Source: a virus. Taken from it: a DNA stretch of 55,300 nt. Shown one piece after another: positions 5,762-55,300 of the stretch (position 1 is its first letter; every line of letters begins with the position of its first letter). The notes under the pieces were generated by a model, which was given only the letters and a program-made list of their open reading frames with translations, did not search any database and had not been told where the DNA came from. The DNA lies in the IMG/VR virus record IMGVR_UViG_3300014501_000022, positions 1-55,300 of that record, one strand, 5' to 3'. The translations under genes were made by a program, and so were the position numbers.

Positions 5762-6445
5762 ATGAAAACAATCTTAATTTACAGTGGTGGGCTAGACTCT
5801 ACAGCGCTTCTATATCAGTTGAAGGCAGAAGGCCGTGAAGTAAAGACGTTGTCCATCAATTATGGGCAGAAGCACATCAAGGAGCTTACCGCAGCGAAGT
5901 ATATCACCTCGAATCTAGATGTAGAGCATCGGATCGTAGATCTTTCCAGTCTCCGACCCCTCCTAGGAGGTAGTTCTCAGACAGACGATGCTGTAGCCGT
6001 TCCTGATGGCCATTACGCTGAAGAGGTTATGAAGAAGACTATCGTTTCGAACAGAAACATGTTAATGCTCGCAGTCGCAGGGGCGTGGGCAATCTCTTCG
6101 AGATACGATACTATCGCGTACGCGGCGCATGCCGGCGACCATGCAATCTACCCAGATTGCAGAGAAGAGTTCGTTAGACCGCTTAACGAAGCGATGCAGA
6201 ACGCCGACTGGCATAAGGTTTCGATCGAAAGACCCTTTATCAATACAACGAAGGCCGGTATCGTTAAGGTCGGCAGTAAGTTGAGCGTACCCTTCGCACA
6301 GACGTGGAGTTGTTATAAGGGCGGGGATAAGCATTGCGGAACATGTGGAACTTGTTACGAGAGACGTGAAGCGTTCATCGAAGCAGGTGTTAAGGATCCG
6401 ACTCCATATCTAGACGCAACGACTACATTCTCCGTGCCAGCGTAA
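5762..6445 (+). CDS. queC: QueC, 7-cyano-7-deazaguanine (preQ0) synthase
   Basis: 227 residues, full family length. QueC uses ATP and ammonia to convert 7-carboxy-7-deazaguanine to preQ0. The PP-loop SGGLDST is at residues 8-14. The C-terminal zinc site is CxGGDKHCGTCGTC, giving four cysteines. The SNRNMLML and AAHAGDHAIYPDCR segments are typical of the family. AAGGA lies upstream. With folE2, queD and queE elsewhere in the window it completes preQ0 synthesis, and DpdA at 22690 gives a use for the product in DNA. Confidence 0.96.
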   Translation: MKTILIYSGGLDSTALLYQLKAEGREVKTLSINYGQKHIKELTAAKYITSNLDVEHRIVDLSSLRPLLGGSSQTDDAVAVPDGHYAEEVMKKTIVSNRNMLMLAVAGAWAISSRYDTIAYAAHAGDHAIYPDCREEFVRPLNEAMQNADWHKVSIERPFINTTKAGIVKVGSKLSVPFAQTWSCYKGGDKHCGTCGTCYERREAFIEAGVKDPTPYLDATTTFSVPA

Positions 6446-6446
6446 T

Positions 6447-6635
6447 ATGAAACATATTTATGTAGTAGAGTATGGAGATGGGACTGATTGTATGTTTGTC
6501 AAATCAGATCATATCCGCAAGGTACGTTCTTATGTTAAAGCGCACCTACTTAAAATAGAGGGGATGTCTACCGCAGATCTAGAAGACATACTATCAGATA
6601 CGTTCATTGGAAGAATTAAAGTCGAAGAGGTTTAA
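6447..6635 (+). CDS. Small hypothetical protein
   Basis: 62 residues, starting one base after the queC stop. It has a beta-type N-terminus (MKHIYVVEYGDG) and a helical acidic C-terminus. No family recognised. Tight packing with queC and the next gene suggests one transcript. Confidence 0.6.
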   Translation: MKHIYVVEYGDGTDCMFVKSDHIRKVRSYVKAHLLKIEGMSTADLEDILSDTFIGRIKVEEV

Positions 6636-9690: not shown

Positions 9691-10581
9691 ATGTCCGAAC
9701 AGATTGCCGAAGTAACGCCCGTAGCCACAAGTAAGTATCCTGTAGAGCAGGAAACAACGACTACACCCGTTACTACTACAGAAAAACAGATGTTAATATC
9801 TGAGATCTACCCATGTTCTCAGGGAGAGGGACCACTAACTGGTACCCCTTCGATTCTTATCAGGACTTCTACGTGCAATCTTCGTTGCCGTTGGACAGAT
9901 CCCAAGACGGGTAGTCGCAACATTTGTGACACTCCTTTTACGAGTTGGAACCCGGATTTAAACAATCCAATGACTACACAGGAGATTTATGACAAAACAA
10001 TCCTACTTGCCACCAAAAAAGACGACGGAACCGATAGAAAAGGACCCATCACTCATGCGATTGTCAGTGGCGGCGAGCCTACTCTATGGGGAACGGATCT
10101 GGCAGATCTATCGCTAGGACTTCTAGTGTCAGGGTTTCATATTACCATTGAGACTAACGGCACCAAGTATGTCGAGATCAACTCTAAGCAGAAGAGGAAG
10201 GGAGGCGCACCGTTAGATCTGACAGGAAACATCTTATTCTCGATCTCCCCGAAGTTAGCATCCTCTACGCCGTTTGGCTCAGCTTACGAGAAGGAACACA
10301 ACAAGTTGCGCATTAATTACGTAGTTTTAGATGCGCTTCTAAAGAGATATCCTTCTTATCTTAAGTTCGTGGTAACTGGACCAGATGACCTTAAAGAGAT
10401 CCTTGAAATCCAGAAGGAGCTTAAGCTTCCCTCACAGCGCGTCTTCTTAATGCCAGAAGGTATTACTAGAGATGAGATCCTTGAACACGGTCCTGCAATT
10501 AACGACCTTTGCATGGAGTACGGATTCCGTTACTCTCCTAGAGAGCACGTGATCCTTTACAATAACAAACGGAAGACCTAA
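9691..10581 (+). CDS. queE: QueE, 7-carboxy-7-deazaguanine synthase (radical SAM)
   Basis: 296 residues. It converts 6-carboxytetrahydropterin to 7-carboxy-7-deazaguanine using SAM and a 4Fe-4S cluster. Family marks are SQGEGPLTGTPS (substrate and SAM region), the SGGEPT motif and the ETNGT motif. The cluster cysteines C62, C66 and C79 show CX3CX12C spacing instead of CX3CX2C, because about ten residues are inserted before the conserved CDTPFTSW. About 32 extra N-terminal residues are Thr/Val-rich. AGGGAG precedes the ATG. Confidence 0.93.
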   Translation: MSEQIAEVTPVATSKYPVEQETTTTPVTTTEKQMLISEIYPCSQGEGPLTGTPSILIRTSTCNLRCRWTDPKTGSRNICDTPFTSWNPDLNNPMTTQEIYDKTILLATKKDDGTDRKGPITHAIVSGGEPTLWGTDLADLSLGLLVSGFHITIETNGTKYVEINSKQKRKGGAPLDLTGNILFSISPKLASSTPFGSAYEKEHNKLRINYVVLDALLKRYPSYLKFVVTGPDDLKEILEIQKELKLPSQRVFLMPEGITRDEILEHGPAINDLCMEYGFRYSPREHVILYNNKRKT

Positions 10582-51608: not shown

Positions 51609-52223
51609 CTAGGGATCTAACTCAGACTCCCAATACTTACTATCGATCAAGCGCTGCCAGCTTACGGGGATTGGTGCATGACCCGTAACGAGAGTACCGG
51701 CACCCTTCCATTCTGGCCGTTGAGGCTTAACACGTAACGTCATGCCAGCCTCTTCAGGCGTCTTGTCATCCTTCTTGGTGTTGCAAGGAATACAAGATAA
51801 TACAATGTTTGTCCAATTAGATACACCACCCCGAGACTTAGGAATTACGTGATCAAGATTCCATTCGTCTGGCTTAGTAAGCTTAGAGGGCTTAGAAAAC
51901 TTCTTGCCACAGTAAGCGCACTGGTAGTTGTAATGCTCTAGGATATTTCGACGAGAGAATTTAACCTCTTGTCTAGGTAGACGATCATACCGGGTTAACT
52001 GAATAACTTCCGGGATCGCAATTCGGAGGGAAGACGTATGGACGAAACCTCTCCCACTCTTCTCCATCATGGCAGACAACTCACACCAATCATTGAAGTC
52101 GTAGGTAACAAGGTTCTCGTCAACTGCTCTTGCGTGACCTGTGTATAGGAGAGTTAATGCCTTCTGCCAATCGGATATGTGGATTGCGTAGAAGTTTCGG
52201 TTTAAGACTAGCGTGTCAGCCAT
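51609..52223 (-). CDS. HNH endonuclease
   Basis: 204 residues. CAYCGKKF, LDHVIPKSRGG, NWTNIVLSCIPCN and KKDD form a complete HNH/zinc site of the type common in bacterial and phage HNH nucleases. The N-terminal half (about 90 residues) starts LVLNRNFYAIHISDW, typical of this family. AGGAGAG lies upstream. It could be a restriction-like, homing or DNA-processing nuclease. Confidence 0.88.
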   Translation of the reverse strand: MADTLVLNRNFYAIHISDWQKALTLLYTGHARAVDENLVTYDFNDWCELSAMMEKSGRGFVHTSSLRIAIPEVIQLTRYDRLPRQEVKFSRRNILEHYNYQCAYCGKKFSKPSKLTKPDEWNLDHVIPKSRGGVSNWTNIVLSCIPCNTKKDDKTPEEAGMTLRVKPQRPEWKGAGTLVTGHAPIPVSWQRLIDSKYWESELDP

Positions 52224-52304: not shown

Positions 52305-52378
52305 TGGAGCTACCACTCGGTATCGATCCGAGGTCGATCCCTTACCAAGGGATTACTCTGCCTTTGAGCTATGGTAGC
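52305..52378 (-). tRNA. trnT-GGU: tRNA-Thr (GGT)
   Basis: 74 nt with a 7-bp acceptor and encoded CCA. The loop TTGGTAA gives anticodon GGT. The T-loop starts with A54 and the discriminator base is U73, unlike the A73 of E. coli tRNA-Thr. Confidence 0.92.
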
Positions 52379-52384
52379 AAAAAT

Positions 52385-52459
52385 TGGAGCTGCCATGGAG
52401 AGATGCACTCCACTCTGAGACTTACGAAGTCCCTGCATCGCTAACTATGCTTTGGCAGC
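52385..52459 (-). tRNA. trnT-CGU: tRNA-Thr (CGT)
   Basis: 75 nt, CCA encoded. The loop TTCGTAA gives anticodon CGT. The D-arm and acceptor are almost the same as in tRNA-Thr(TGT) at 53461, suggesting recent duplication with anticodon change. U73. Confidence 0.92.
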
Positions 52460-52461
52460 AT

Positions 52462-52535
52462 TGGTATCACCGGGTGGTATCGATCCACCGTCTAAGCCTT
52501 ATGAGAGCCCCATTCTACCTTTGAACTACGGTGAC
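52462..52535 (-). tRNA. trnM-CAU: tRNA with CAT anticodon (elongator Met or Ile2)
   Basis: 74 nt, CCA encoded. The loop CTCATAA gives anticodon CAT. The acceptor has a G1-U72 pair, so it is not initiator-like. If C34 is modified to lysidine it would read AUA as Ile. Sequence alone does not decide. Confidence 0.88.
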
Positions 52536-52542
52536 TACAAAT

Positions 52543-52618
52543 TGGTAGCGGGAGCTGGAATTGAACCAGCCTGGAAGAGCTTATGAGACTCCTGAGTTCA
52601 CCAGAACTCTACCCCGCA
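52543..52618 (-). tRNA. trnfM-CAU: Initiator-like tRNA-fMet (CAT)
   Basis: 76 nt, CCA encoded. Positions 1 and 72 are both U, giving the unpaired 1-72 end typical of bacterial initiators. The acceptor (GCGGGG with CCCGC) and an A11-U24 pair also match. The three G-C pairs usual at the base of the initiator anticodon stem are not kept (29-31 is A-G-U). Confidence 0.82.
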
Positions 52619-52622
52619 AATT

Positions 52623-52698
52623 TGGTACCCTAGGAAGGGGTTGCACCTTCACTGAACAGGTTTTGAAGCTGTTGCCTCTGCTATTGGGCTACTAGGGC
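52623..52698 (-). tRNA. trnL-CAA: tRNA with CAA anticodon (Leu), short variable loop
   Basis: 76 nt, CCA encoded, A73. The loop TTCAAAA gives CAA. The variable loop is only 5 nt, whereas bacterial tRNA-Leu normally has a long arm. Pair 31-39 is a C-C mismatch and T-loop position 55 is G. Confidence 0.8.
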
Positions 52699-52837
52699 GA
52701 CTGTCTAAATACACACTTAGGCGCTTCGCGAAACATTCAACACAGTTATCTGTACTCAGGTTAAAGGTCTCAGCTAGGTCGTATAAGAGAGAACCCATCG
52801 TCATTGGATTCACTATACAACAAAGTGCCTTTGTCAT
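52649..52837 (-). CDS. Small hypothetical protein overlapping a tRNA
   Basis: 62 residues. Its ATG at 52837 overlaps the TGA of the gene at 52834 as ATGA. The last 16 codons lie inside the tRNA-Leu(CAA) gene. The N-terminal 45 residues (with CC and CVEC) look coding. The C-terminal part may only reflect tRNA sequence. Confidence 0.45.
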   Translation of the reverse strand: MTKALCCIVNPMTMGSLLYDLAETFNLSTDNCVECFAKRLSVYLDSRPSSPIAEATASKPVQ

Positions 52838-53031
52838 TTCTTCTTTATGTGTCTTGGGTTATCTTTCTTACCGCAAGGATACCCGCACTTCTTACAATGG
52901 CGACTCGATACAGCAAAGGCACCGATCATGGAGTCATCGATAAAGTCCCAGTCGAGAGTTTCCATTACCTTCTTTGGAACCTTCTTATACTTCCCTCGTA
53001 CGCCTTTACTGAAGTCGTACTCTTTCTTCAT
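52834..53031 (-). CDS. Small zinc protein starting 1 nt after a tRNA
   Basis: 65 residues with HCKKCGYPCG and a Lys-rich end. The ATG (53029-53031) lies one base after the encoded CCA of tRNA-Leu(AAG). It has no room for a ribosome-binding site once the tRNA is excised. Confidence 0.6.
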   Translation of the reverse strand: MKKEYDFSKGVRGKYKKVPKKVMETLDWDFIDDSMIGAFAVSSRHCKKCGYPCGKKDNPRHIKKK

Positions 53032-53032
53032 A

Positions 53033-53108
53033 TGGTGCCTATGGTAGGATTTGAACCTACACTGGACGGCTTCTTAGACCGCTTCCTCTGCCGTTGGGAT
53101 ACATAGGC
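53033..53108 (-). tRNA. trnL-AAG: tRNA with AAG anticodon (Leu), short variable loop
   Basis: 76 nt, CCA encoded, A73. The loop CTAAGAA gives AAG, rare in bacteria because A34 usually needs conversion to inosine. The variable loop is 5 nt rather than the long arm of tRNA-Leu. Confidence 0.8.
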
Positions 53109-53114
53109 TTAAAT

Positions 53115-53188
53115 TGGTGCTCTAGGAAGGAATCGAACCTTCACGGTCACAATGTCAATGTGATGCCCTACCACTAGGCGACTGGAGC
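53115..53188 (-). tRNA. trnV-GAC: tRNA-Val (GAC)
   Basis: 74 nt, CCA encoded. The loop TTGACAT gives GAC. One acceptor mismatch (C5-A68). Its first base is the last base of the TAG stop of the upstream small gene. Confidence 0.9.
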
Positions 53189-53379
53189 TAATATATCTCT
53201 TGTTTCGGACCACATCGCGTAAGAAGAAAGCCCATGATCTTTCGATCACTTCTCAAACAATAGTCGTCCCAATCGTCTTGGAACTTCCACTTCTTGGTAC
53301 ATCTATCACAATAGGTCCAATCATCTTTCTTCTTCCAATCGTGATAAAGAATCTTACACAAGTCCTTCTCAAACTTCAT
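53188..53379 (-). CDS. Small zinc protein between tRNA-Arg and tRNA-Val
   Basis: 63 residues with CDRC and further Cys/His/Trp residues. DLCKILYHDW near the start matches NLCKILGHDW in the gene at 54861, so the two are paralogues. The ATG is one base after the CCA of tRNA-Arg. The TAG stop shares its G with position 1 of tRNA-Val. Confidence 0.62.
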   Translation of the reverse strand: MKFEKDLCKILYHDWKKKDDWTYCDRCTKKWKFQDDWDDYCLRSDRKIMGFLLTRCGPKQEIY

Positions 53380-53380
53380 A

Positions 53381-53455
53381 TGGTGCCCTTAGCAGGAGTC
53401 GAACCCGCATCTCAGAGGTAGAAGCTCCGCGCTCTGGCCATTGAGCTATAAGGGC
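53381..53455 (-). tRNA. trnR-UCU: tRNA-Arg (TCT)
   Basis: 75 nt, CCA encoded. The loop CTTCTAC gives TCT, reading AGA/AGG. All arms pair well. Confidence 0.94.
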
Positions 53456-53460
53456 TAAAT

Positions 53461-53535
53461 TGGAGCCGCCACCCGGACTCGCGCCGGACTATCACGCTTA
53501 CAAGGCGTGCGCATCGCTACCTATGCTTTGGCGGC
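53461..53535 (-). tRNA. trnT-UGU: tRNA-Thr (TGT)
   Basis: 75 nt, CCA encoded. The loop CTTGTAA gives TGT. Close relative of tRNA-Thr(CGT) at 52385. U73; T-loop begins C54-G55. Confidence 0.9.
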
Positions 53536-53540
53536 ATATA

Positions 53541-53613
53541 TGCCTTCGGTCGGAATTGAACCGACATGGACGGGAGTTTAGAGTTCCCCGCTTTGCCATT
53601 AAGCTACGAAGGC
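53541..53613 (-). tRNA. tRNA with CTA anticodon (amber suppressor-like)
   Basis: 73 nt. Acceptor GCCTTCG pairs fully with CGAAGGC, A73, D-arm and T-arm (GTCGG, TTCAATT, CCGAC) are normal. The loop CTCTAAA gives anticodon CTA, which reads UAG. Pair 31-39 is A-C. It is the only tRNA in the array without an encoded CCA. Confidence 0.78.
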
Positions 53614-53619
53614 TAATTG

Positions 53620-54090
53620 TTACTTTCTTAAGGCACTAAAAATTCTCTTGGCTATCGTCCAAGGGCTGTATTGCCATTCACCATTGATCATACCTTCAAC
53701 CATTCCTGGCAAAGCTTCAGTACATAGACGACAGTGTTCGTACGACAGTCCGTGCATTCCACACTGAGCTATCGGTCCCATGTTGACTTTCCAACCGTCT
53801 GAGGCGCCGGGCCTTACTGCGGAGTAACTGTAACCTCTTGTTGAGGGACACTTCGCGTACTCAGTGAAATGTCTTTCTGGACTACAAATTGTTTTCTCGA
53901 ATACCTCATACACCCAAGGATCGCCGCTTGCATTCTTCTGCCATGATCTCTTTAGATCGTAGCCGCACCAGCAATGCGTATGTATCCCGTATATGTTGTA
54001 TAGTCTCTTTACTTCTTGTCGCTCGCGACCGTGCTTCTGACATCCTATCAAACGTGGTCCGCCCGACGCCGTATATCCTCCGTCGTTCAA
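53620..54090 (-). CDS. Cys/His-rich hypothetical protein, start uncertain
   Basis: 156 residues from a TTG at 54090 with no ribosome-binding site. The frame is open upstream to a TAG at 54145-54147. Pairs and triplets such as GCQKHG, HCWCG, ICSPERH, QCGMHG and CRLC suggest several zinc sites. Upstream, beyond two in-frame TAG codons, the same frame continues into the small gene at 54160-54342. It may therefore be the C-terminal part of a longer protein if TAG is read through. Confidence 0.58.
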   Translation of the reverse strand: MNDGGYTASGGPRLIGCQKHGRERQEVKRLYNIYGIHTHCWCGYDLKRSWQKNASGDPWVYEVFEKTICSPERHFTEYAKCPSTRGYSYSAVRPGASDGWKVNMGPIAQCGMHGLSYEHCRLCTEALPGMVEGMINGEWQYSPWTIAKRIFSALRK

Positions 54091-54159
54091 CGTACAAAGA
54101 ATATGTTTCCTTGCAGCGATACACGGAAGGCTAATTAGTTCTTCCTACGACTCTTCTTT

Positions 54160-54342
54160 CTATAACATTTTATCTCCATTACCGTAAGTTGGCTTCTTCG
54201 GGTCTATTGCCCAGTGGTGCCCTTTGCTTTCAGTATAAGGACATTCACGCGGCTGTGCCCTTGCAGGCCAGCACTTGTAACAACACTTCGTCTTACAAAG
54301 CTTACACCAGCAATATTCGTTGATAACGCAACAAATGTTCAT
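54160..54342 (-). CDS. Small Cys-rich zinc protein ending in TAG
   Basis: 60 residues. CCVINEYCWCKLCKTKCCYKC near the N-terminus holds eight cysteines, then a His/Trp/Pro-rich end. A perfect TATAAT lies 5 nt before the ATG and no Shine-Dalgarno is present. The TAG stop (54160-54162) is followed by four codons, a second TAG, and then the open frame of the gene at 53620. Confidence 0.62.
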   Translation of the reverse strand: MNICCVINEYCWCKLCKTKCCYKCWPARAQPRECPYTESKGHHWAIDPKKPTYGNGDKML

Positions 54343-54347
54343 TACTG

Positions 54348-54353
54348 ATTATA
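54348..54353 (-). promoter_or_regulatory. Perfect -10 box for a leaderless gene
   Basis: TATAAT, preceded by AGTG, lies 5 nt before the ATG at 54342. It sits between a tRNA 3' end and the gene. Confidence 0.55.
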
Positions 54354-54361
54354 CACTAAAT

Positions 54362-54437
54362 TGGTAGCCTAGGAGAGGGTTGCACTCTCACTGTACGGGT
54401 TTTAAAGCCGCTGCCTCTGCTATTGGGCTACTAGGCC
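54362..54437 (-). tRNA. trnL-UAA: tRNA with TAA anticodon (Leu), short variable loop
   Basis: 76 nt, CCA encoded, A73. The loop TTTAAAA gives TAA. A 5-nt variable loop, C-C at 31-39 and G55, as in the CAA tRNA at 52623, show they are duplicates. Its 5' end contains the TAG stop of the upstream small gene. Confidence 0.8.
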
Positions 54438-54595
54438 GTCAAATCGATTGGTCGCTCTATGCAGTATGAAGAACCTGTGTAAGCGTTCTGTTCAATCCAG
54501 TCCTTATCTGCTTTGTAACAATCGACACAGTACTCATACTTCATACCATCAACTGTCACAAATACTACCGGATGAACCTGACAACAGAGTCTCAT
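54431..54595 (-). CDS. Small zinc protein (54 aa) between tRNA-Cys and tRNA-Leu
   Basis: The ATG at 54595 lies 2 nt after the CCA of tRNA-Cys. The 54 codons include LCCQVH and YCVDCY. The stop TAG is formed by acceptor-stem bases of tRNA-Leu(TAA), followed directly by another TAG. No ribosome-binding site outside the tRNA. Confidence 0.6.
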   Translation of the reverse strand: MRLCCQVHPVVFVTVDGMKYEYCVDCYKADKDWIEQNAYTGSSYCIERPIDLTA

Positions 54596-54597
54596 AT

Positions 54598-54672
54598 TGG
54601 AGCACCAGGGGAGAATCGAACTCCCTCATGAAAGTTTTGCAGACTCTCAGCTTCCCACTTGCCTACTGGTGC
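54598..54672 (-). tRNA. trnC-GCA: tRNA-Cys (GCA)
   Basis: 75 nt, CCA encoded. The loop CTGCAAA gives GCA, and U73 fits Cys identity. The D-arm pairs poorly and has a large loop. Confidence 0.9.
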
Positions 54673-54673
54673 A

Positions 54674-54868
54674 TTATTGGCTTGGCAAGTCAGGGTAACA
54701 AGCTATACAATACTTCTTTACGTCGGTACAATAGTTCGTATAAGCTCCGACATGCAGCGTTGTGTCGTCGCAACCCGGATAAGTACACTGGTGGTAATAT
54801 CCTAATAAACCTCTATACGCATTACCCCACTTGTGTCCATTTACGAGGCACGGTAAAGATCTATTCAT
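54674..54868 (-). CDS. Small zinc protein
   Basis: 64 residues with a CLVNGHKWG segment, HQCTYPGCD and YCIACYP. Its ATG overlaps the TAG end of the gene at 54861, and its TAA lies one base before tRNA-Cys. Confidence 0.6.
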   Translation of the reverse strand: MNRSLPCLVNGHKWGNAYRGLLGYYHQCTYPGCDDTTLHVGAYTNYCTDVKKYCIACYPDLPSQ

Positions 54869-55031
54869 ATGTTAGGATTGTCGTACCATAATCGACACCC
54901 GACAACGTCTGGAATGCTCCGCACTTACGACGACAGTTTCTATACTTCGTAGGGAACCCTTTCTTTACTTTCGAAAGGATAAACTCACCCCAATCATGCC
55001 CTAATATCTTACACAGGTTCTTTAGAAACAT
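54861..55031 (-). CDS. Small Cys protein (56 aa) after tRNA-Trp
   Basis: The ATG at 55031 lies 4 nt after the CCA of tRNA-Trp. 56 codons with NLCKILGHDW, matching the gene at 53188, and CRRKC. The stop is TAG and overlaps the next start. Readthrough would add only 12 residues before TAA. Confidence 0.6.
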   Translation of the reverse strand: MFLKNLCKILGHDWGEFILSKVKKGFPTKYRNCRRKCGAFQTLSGVDYGTTILTYE

Positions 55032-55035
55032 AAAC

Positions 55036-55109
55036 TGGCGGGGGCTCTAGGAATCGAACCCAGGTTAACGGTTTTGGAGACCGCAATTCTGCCACTGAAC
55101 TAAACCCCC
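55036..55109 (-). tRNA. trnW-CCA: tRNA-Trp (CCA)
   Basis: 74 nt, CCA encoded. The loop CTCCAAA gives CCA and G73 fits Trp identity. All arms pair well. Confidence 0.94.
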
Positions 55110-55116
55110 ATAAATC

Positions 55117-55204
55117 TGGCGGAAGCTACAGGATTCGAACCTGTGGAGCTGTTACACCCTTCGGTTTTCAAGACCGACGCCTTAAACCACTCGGCCAAAC
55201 TTCC
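55117..55204 (-). tRNA. trnS-UGA: tRNA-Ser (TGA)
   Basis: 88 nt with a long variable arm as expected for Ser, CCA encoded, G73. The loop CTTGAAA gives TGA. Confidence 0.94.
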
Positions 55205-55300
55205 AAATCAATTGTAGTAGTGCTGACCTTGTTTTTAACCCCACATCCGCGTGCTGGTCCCATTTTAGCTAGCCTTATTGGGACTTCTCGAGTTACGAAG
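55205..55300. other. Edge region with no supported gene
   Basis: 96 bases after the last tRNA. A 31-codon minus-strand frame runs into tRNA-Ser but has no ribosome-binding site or sign of coding. I see no further tRNA here. Confidence 0.6.

Follow-up and report, generated by a model that had tools for sequence, protein, structure and literature searches.

Small open reading frames abut tRNA genes on both sides in a jumbo phage array resembling mitochondrial tRNA punctuation

Transfer RNA (tRNA) genes punctuate mitochondrial genomes, where genes abut tRNAs on both sides and start directly after the upstream tRNA. Among phages, the tRNA cluster of T5 places small open reading frames (ORFs) and HNH endonuclease genes between tRNAs, all on one strand. 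Here we describe a tRNA array on the minus strand of IMG/VR record IMGVR_UViG_3300014501_000022 (positions 1 to 55,300, the whole analysed stretch, hereafter the window). The record encodes a ribonucleotide reductase, a UvsX/RecA-type recombinase and a DNA polymerase, and is a 55 kb fragment from an uncultured jumbo (giant) phage. In this phage and two relatives, small ORFs begin within a few nucleotides (nt) of a tRNA 3′ end at 26 of 43 tRNA-to-gene junctions, against about 5% expected, and 23 of the 41 tRNAs that have a preceding gene are abutted by its stop. The arrangement, noticed in a preliminary description of the window, is real and stronger than first stated.

Scanning IMG/VR with the window's DNA polymerase yielded the relative G2 (IMGVR_UViG_3300027807_000001; 210,348 bases, 86% identity), which holds a tRNA array homologous to the window's. 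The second relative, G6 (IMGVR_UViG_3300028654_000213; 27.6 kb), was found by scanning for a pattern, and its proteins with G2 homologues are about 27 to 73% identical to them. A fourth contig, G7, from a different metagenome, is 99.99% identical to G2 across 43 kb, a tRNA-Val/ORF junction included; because it is an independent assembly, G2 is not an assembly accident. We scored start abutment at all tRNAs as an ATG-initiated ORF of at least 30 amino acids (aa) beginning 0-7 nt from the tRNA 3′ end, and took as the null how often this happens across every position of those regions. Starts abutted at 4/6 junctions in the window (null 5.3%, P=1e-4), 15/26 in G2 (4.7%, P=6e-14) and 7/11 in G6 (6.5%, P=1e-6). 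The 57 other tRNA-rich contigs used as a control gave 18 of 474, which is the chance level (Fisher P=5e-21 versus the clade). These control counts exclude junctions carrying the scanned NTTTATG motif; under the same exclusion the clade still shows 16/33. Stop abutment, scored as an ORF of at least 40 codons ending within 10 nt of tRNA nt 1, was found in 4/5 cases in the window, 11/26 in G2 and 8/10 in G6 (null 5-7%; P=1e-4, 3e-8 and 1e-8, respectively). Four stops read TA|G with the G serving as tRNA nt 1 (window tRNA-Val; G2 tRNA-Leu 61368, tRNA-Arg 105403 and tRNA-Val 112986) and are complete in the DNA, and stops inside tRNAs also occur (offsets +7 and +10). Isolated G2 tRNAs outside the cluster abut ORFs as well (40828, 43555, 61368). 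Sought in related phages, the spacing first noted in the window thus recurs in both. Unrelated phage contigs sporadically carry longer ORFs 4 nt past a tRNA CCA: tRNA-Val/230-aa in L107, tRNA-Leu/137-aa in L113, tRNA-Thr/124-aa in L095 and L119, and tRNA-Thr/114-aa in L074 and L146.

Within the window, every coordinate in the preliminary description proved correct against ARAGORN and the raw minus strand. The ATG at 53379 lies 1 nt after the CCA of tRNA-Arg, and those at 53031, 54595 and 55031 lie 1, 2 and 4 nt past theirs. ORF 53188-53379 has a TAG whose G is also nt 1 of tRNA-Val, the TAG of 54431-54595 falls within tRNA-Leu(taa), and a single nt separates the TAA of 54674-54868 from tRNA-Cys. 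The array holds further items that the description had not listed, namely tRNA-Thr(tgt), ORF 54160-54342 at 19 nt, ORF 52649-52837, a CUA tRNA and the early amber codons beside it. The features, read from ARAGORN calls, Rfam and the raw minus strand, are these:

55214-55300, minus strand: raiA-like structured RNA, 3′ part (Rfam RF03072, 24.5 bits, model positions 108-209), truncated where the contig ends; it lies upstream of the tRNA array
55117-55204, minus strand: tRNA-Ser(tga), CCA encoded, GATTTAT linker to tRNA-Trp
55036-55109, minus strand: tRNA-Trp(cca), GTTT linker to ATG 55031
54861-55031, minus strand: ORF MFLKNLCKILGHDWG (MFLKN), 56 aa, start 4 nt past tRNA-Trp, 74% aa identity to its G2 homologue
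54674-54868, minus strand: ORF MNRSLPCLVNGHKW, 64 aa, overlapping the MFLKN ORF, stop 1 nt before tRNA-Cys, TAA+T junction the same in G2
54598-54672, minus strand: tRNA-Cys(gca), AT linker to ATG 54595
54431-54595, minus strand: LCC-type ORF MRLCCQVHP, 54 aa, TAG stop forming nt 5-7 of tRNA-Leu(taa)
54362-54437, minus strand: tRNA-Leu(taa)
54160-54342, minus strand: LCC-type ORF MNICCVINEY, 60 aa, the exception, starting 19 nt past tRNA-Leu(taa); its TAG is the next gene's first amber, in the same frame
53620-54168, minus strand: putative amber-gated gene with Shine-Dalgarno (SD) sequence GGAG and ATG 54168, TAG at codon 3 (54162-54160) and codon 8 (54147-54145), open to TAA 53622-53620
53541-53613, minus strand: CUA-anticodon (amber-reading) tRNA, called 'Pyl' by ARAGORN, Rfam tRNA 57.1 bits, CCA not encoded, 6 nt past the putative amber-gated gene
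53461-53535, minus strand: tRNA-Thr(tgt), missed by ARAGORN and Rfam and read from sequence, with complete acceptor stem and CCA, close to tRNA-Thr(cgt) at 52385, which ARAGORN calls
53381-53455, minus strand: tRNA-Arg(tct), T linker to ATG 53379
53188-53379, minus strand: ORF MKFEKDLCKILYHDW (LCKILYHDW), 63 aa, TA|G stop with its G as tRNA-Val nt 1, 46% identity to its G2 homologue
53115-53188, minus strand: tRNA-Val(gac)
53033-53108, minus strand: tRNA-Leu(aag), T linker to ATG 53031
52834-53031, minus strand: ORF MKKEYDFSKGV, 65 aa, start 1 nt past tRNA-Leu(aag), TGA overlapping the next ATG (ATGA)
52649-52837, minus strand: LCC-like ORF MTKALCCIVNP, 62 aa, ending deep inside tRNA-Leu(caa), weak LCC profile match (E=0.12)
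52305-52698, minus strand: five tRNAs (Leu-caa, Met, Met, Thr-cgt, Thr-ggt), mostly with short T-rich linkers
51609-52223, minus strand: HNH endonuclease gene at the end of the array, 81 nt past the last tRNA, normal SD (-7.3 kcal/mol), 78% identity to G2

The likeness to mitochondrial tRNA punctuation drawn in the preliminary description holds for the layout, which is non-random and recurrent, and the four TA|G stops would become incomplete UA upon excision. It does not extend to most genes of the genome, as G2 tRNAs occupy one cluster and four single sites of a large genome. The stops are complete in the DNA, and the parallel is one of sequence anatomy. In T5, stops also abut or overlap the next tRNA (0, 4, 5, -6, -14, -23 and -24 nt), whereas the twelve tRNA-to-gene gaps measured there are 13-34 nt long and nearly all contain an SD; at our 26 junctions the ORF starts 1-7 nt past the tRNA, mostly without one. 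The stop half of the arrangement therefore matches architecture already described, and what is new is the start half. The best comparison is a T5-like mixed array taken to a punctuation-like extreme, with tRNA genes as the punctuation. Theta ribozymes are another phage device at tRNA 3′ ends; they are enriched at CUA suppressor tRNAs, and 4.5% of their associated tRNAs encode CCA (PMC10879173). Here, in contrast, the 1-7 nt linkers are too short for a ribozyme and CCA is mostly encoded, and the Rfam scans found no ribozyme families.

Those small ORFs that have homologues are under purifying selection, so for them one refuting condition set in the preliminary description, a lack of such selection, does not hold. 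Compared with G2, the MFLKN ORF has proportions of nonsynonymous and synonymous differences (pN and pS) of 0.18 and 0.83, and the ratio of nonsynonymous to synonymous substitution rates (dN/dS) is about 0.46 for the MNRSLPCLVNGHKW ORF and about 0.29 for the LCKILYHDW ORF. Most abutting ORFs carry LCCxxNPxxxCxxCxxxxCxx[CH] or a related LCKILGHDW/LVCIVNGHDW start. At E<=1e-3, an LCC profile recovers about 62 members in G2 (stretches L018, L019, L023 and L024) and 20 in G6 (L150 and L151), the majority not beside tRNAs; a divergent copy, MSRWWPKPVEQLLCCLVTPNYTCGICKYRLC, lies on the plus strand of the window near 10580. Among the matches listed for a TTTATGAA..ACTNTGYTGY scan, credible LCC genes occur solely in this clade. 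Pfam and PHROGs contain no family matching LCC proteins, and the predicted fold (mean predicted local distance difference test score, pLDDT, of 67) gave weak B-box-like matches alone (E 0.8 or worse). These small Cys-rich proteins are probably zinc-binding. The ORFs themselves turn over between phages. A different ORF abuts tRNA-Arg(tct) in the window (1 nt) and in G2 (4 nt), and the distances for tRNA-Trp are 4 nt and 3 nt; G2 has extra ORFs in the tRNA-Trp/MFLKN and tRNA-Arg(tct)/LCKILYHDW intervals, where the first ORF abuts the tRNA (3 and 4 nt). Because abutment persists despite this turnover at corresponding tRNAs, the spacing appears to have been regained or kept, not merely copied.

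The linker that follows CCA is stereotyped, mostly N-TTT-A, and alike at both junction types: T occupies positions +2, +3 and +4 in 15, 19 and 16 of 21 tRNA-to-tRNA linkers and in 16, 20 and 15 of 21 tRNA-to-ORF linkers. A TTT lies within 6 nt before the ATG in 13/13 tRNA-adjacent LCC genes versus 5/65 LCC genes elsewhere, which ties the motif to the tRNA and not to the gene. Scanning for CCA-NTTTATG returned at least 120 matches; since most are tRNA-to-tRNA linkers in which the ATG is formed using the next tRNA's G, NTTTATG alone does not mark a gene. RNase E favours U two nt downstream of its cut (PMC5222698), and cleavage at CCAA|UUUA would fit this preference. Bacterial tRNA 3′ trailers of the RNase E type, AU-rich after CCA, are resembled by the N-UUU that directly follows CCA here at both junction types and that other phage arrays have too; the difference is that here coding sequences have their 5′ end region at this very site. 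SD energies are -2.9 kcal/mol for adjacent ORFs and -2.55 for tRNA-to-tRNA linkers, and ORFs at least 15 nt past a tRNA have a median of -5.45. The acceptor stem is formed in 23/26 predicted precursor folds, which would hide any SD within it. A weak SD combined with a folded acceptor stem fits leaderless use in these predictions.

These observations suggest a tentative model, drawn from the anatomy of the array, that we hold at close to an even call: tRNA maturation may release near-leaderless mini-mRNAs whose translation depends on excision. The N-UUU-A linker after CCA would be an endonuclease site for tRNA 3′ maturation (RNase E type, or an equivalent enzyme of the host), and cutting there together with RNase P cleavage at the next tRNA would yield short mRNAs with 0-6 nt leaders. 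These would be translated leaderless or near-leaderless, tying mini-gene output to tRNA maturation. We would expect a mixture, with some translation on nascent uncut RNA and some from excised RNAs. If this is true, bacterial viruses would have in this array a counterpart to mitochondrial tRNA punctuation.

Several points weigh against excision-dependent translation. RNase P cleavage would strip the last base of the four TA|G stops and the whole of stops lying further inside tRNAs (+7, +10, and ORF 52649 deep in tRNA-Leu(caa)); that the latter survive solely on uncut RNA argues for at least some translation there. SD-like sequence is present within the acceptor stem of 8/26 adjacent ORFs, and the AUG is mostly unpaired in just 12/26 predicted precursor folds. 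LCC paralogues away from tRNAs have a median SD energy of -3.4 kcal/mol against -2.7 for adjacent ones (P=0.34); since the non-adjacent copies are not clearly better, the SD evidence is weak, and we dropped the lack of an SD as a decisive argument. The spacing also varies, tRNA-Leu(taa) lying 19 nt from its LCC ORF in the window and 4 nt in G2. The internal stops, the acceptor-arm SD-like sequences and the paralogue comparison, along with the overlapping stops already present in T5, favour simple compaction, in which ORFs are packed to save space and translated from a long uncut transcript, and tRNA maturation destroys the message instead of being needed for its translation. Ribosomes might load on the AU-rich linker or, while the tRNA is still unfolded, on SD-like sequence in its acceptor stem; coupling is a further route. 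We give compaction almost as much weight as excision-dependent translation. It leaves unexplained why the ATG sits so tightly against CCA here when T5 leaves its long gaps with an SD, and why the 57 other dense tRNA contigs stay at the chance level, and the acceptor stem, where folded, hides the SD.

That the spacing was inherited and not selected, through repeated copying of one tRNA-linker-LCC unit, seems improbable to us. Inspection assigns about 19 of the 26 abutting ORFs to the LCC or LCKILGHDW-like type, and the family is large (about 60 in G2, 20 in G6). Yet seven abutting ORFs are unrelated to it, most LCC paralogues lie away from tRNAs and are without the TTT motif, the tRNAs are different isoacceptors, and abutment stayed where ORF content changed at corresponding tRNAs. 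As for random ORFs of 50-65 codons, or misassembly, such short ORFs are common in random sequence and pairwise homology is available for some only; we nonetheless give this account next to no weight and regard it as refuted by the present data, given the null tests, purifying selection, the family-wide Cys pattern and the double assembly of G2.

The arrays also contain a CUA tRNA, at 53541-53613 in the window, 110906-110980 in G2 and 6522-6592 in G6 (reverse-complement coordinates), and in 3/3 phages genes ending at or next to it begin SD-ATG-NNN-TAG. The loci are window 53541-54168 (minus strand), G2 L019:12227-12920 and G6 6312-6592 (reverse-complement coordinates). The window gene, whose ATG has an SD of -6.4 kcal/mol, starts ATG TTA TAG ... 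TCG TAG; G2 has two consecutive such genes (ATG TCA TAG ELCC... and ATG TCG TAG NNLISLPC...) and G6 has one (ATG TCA TAG KEELCC...). The window gene is 46% identical to the G2 gene starting ATG TCG TAG, with TCG TAG common to both. ORF callers start it at TTG 54090, but homology to G2 extends upstream. Over the 18 codons after the window's second TAG, 11/18 residues are shared with G2 and the 8 differences within those 11 codons are synonymous; differences by codon position number 9, 3 and 10, and the stretch is without ATG, GTG or TTG in the window. TAG is the codon at each of the five early stops (probability about 8e-5; 5e-4 if four genes are counted), although it terminates 4/47 genes in the window, 25/162 in G2 and 6/23 in G6, about 15% overall.

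On balance we favour the interpretation that these are amber-gated Cys-rich genes coupled to their own suppressor tRNA. Their proteins would not be made unless the phage supplied its CUA tRNA in charged form, and the gate would report the state of the phage tRNA array, within an array that also punctuates mini-mRNAs. The CUA tRNA would be needed because coding is conserved from immediately past the TAG, where the phages have no alternative start codon in common. A TTG does fall at the L of ELCC in G6 and at the second L of LISLPC in G2, which counts against the gate, although in neither case does the homologue have it. A two-codon minigene like those of lambda bar is an alternative that leaves the conserved in-frame coding and the strict use of TAG unexplained. 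Phage amber recoding (code 15) similarly combines a phage CUA tRNA with in-frame TAGs; here, however, TAG is a normal stop elsewhere, so general recoding was rejected, and convincing in-frame TAGs are confined to codon 3 (and 8) in the genes that end at this tRNA. A genome-wide search for homology spanning TAGs gave mostly antisense-frame noise. The unrelated contig L029 also seemed to have an amber gene next to a CUA tRNA, but we rejected this case, as the homologue in phage XacN1 starts at the Met after the TAG. Annotators of phage Summit looked for CUA tRNA targets and found none (PMC9022506). If the amber-gate interpretation is true, these genes would be concrete candidate targets for phage CUA tRNAs in non-recoded genomes, in which it is often unclear what these tRNAs are for.

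Among 50,697 phage records, we found no near relative of the window: megablast gave just an uninformative 64 bp tRNA-Leu match to mycobacteriophages (87.5%), and two large window proteins had zero tblastn matches. IMG/VR scans using the HNH protein, an LCC protein and an 828-aa protein returned no matches. Both G2 and G6 encode Pnkp, a T4-type polynucleotide kinase/phosphatase (L024:4304-5182 and L150:17961-18830; 74% identical), which alongside a tRNA array possibly has a role in tRNA repair; Pnkp alignment scans retrieved further phages, but without tRNAs in the stretches examined. Atypical tRNA-Thr genes overlooked by ARAGORN and/or Rfam lie at 53461-53535 and 52385-52459 on the minus strand of the window and at 115790-115866 in G2. 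A full-length homologue of the raiA-like RNA is present in G2 (L019:10988-11308, plus strand; 61.2 bits over the full model, short of the 101 set as gathering score), inside the tRNA array and just upstream of a tRNA.

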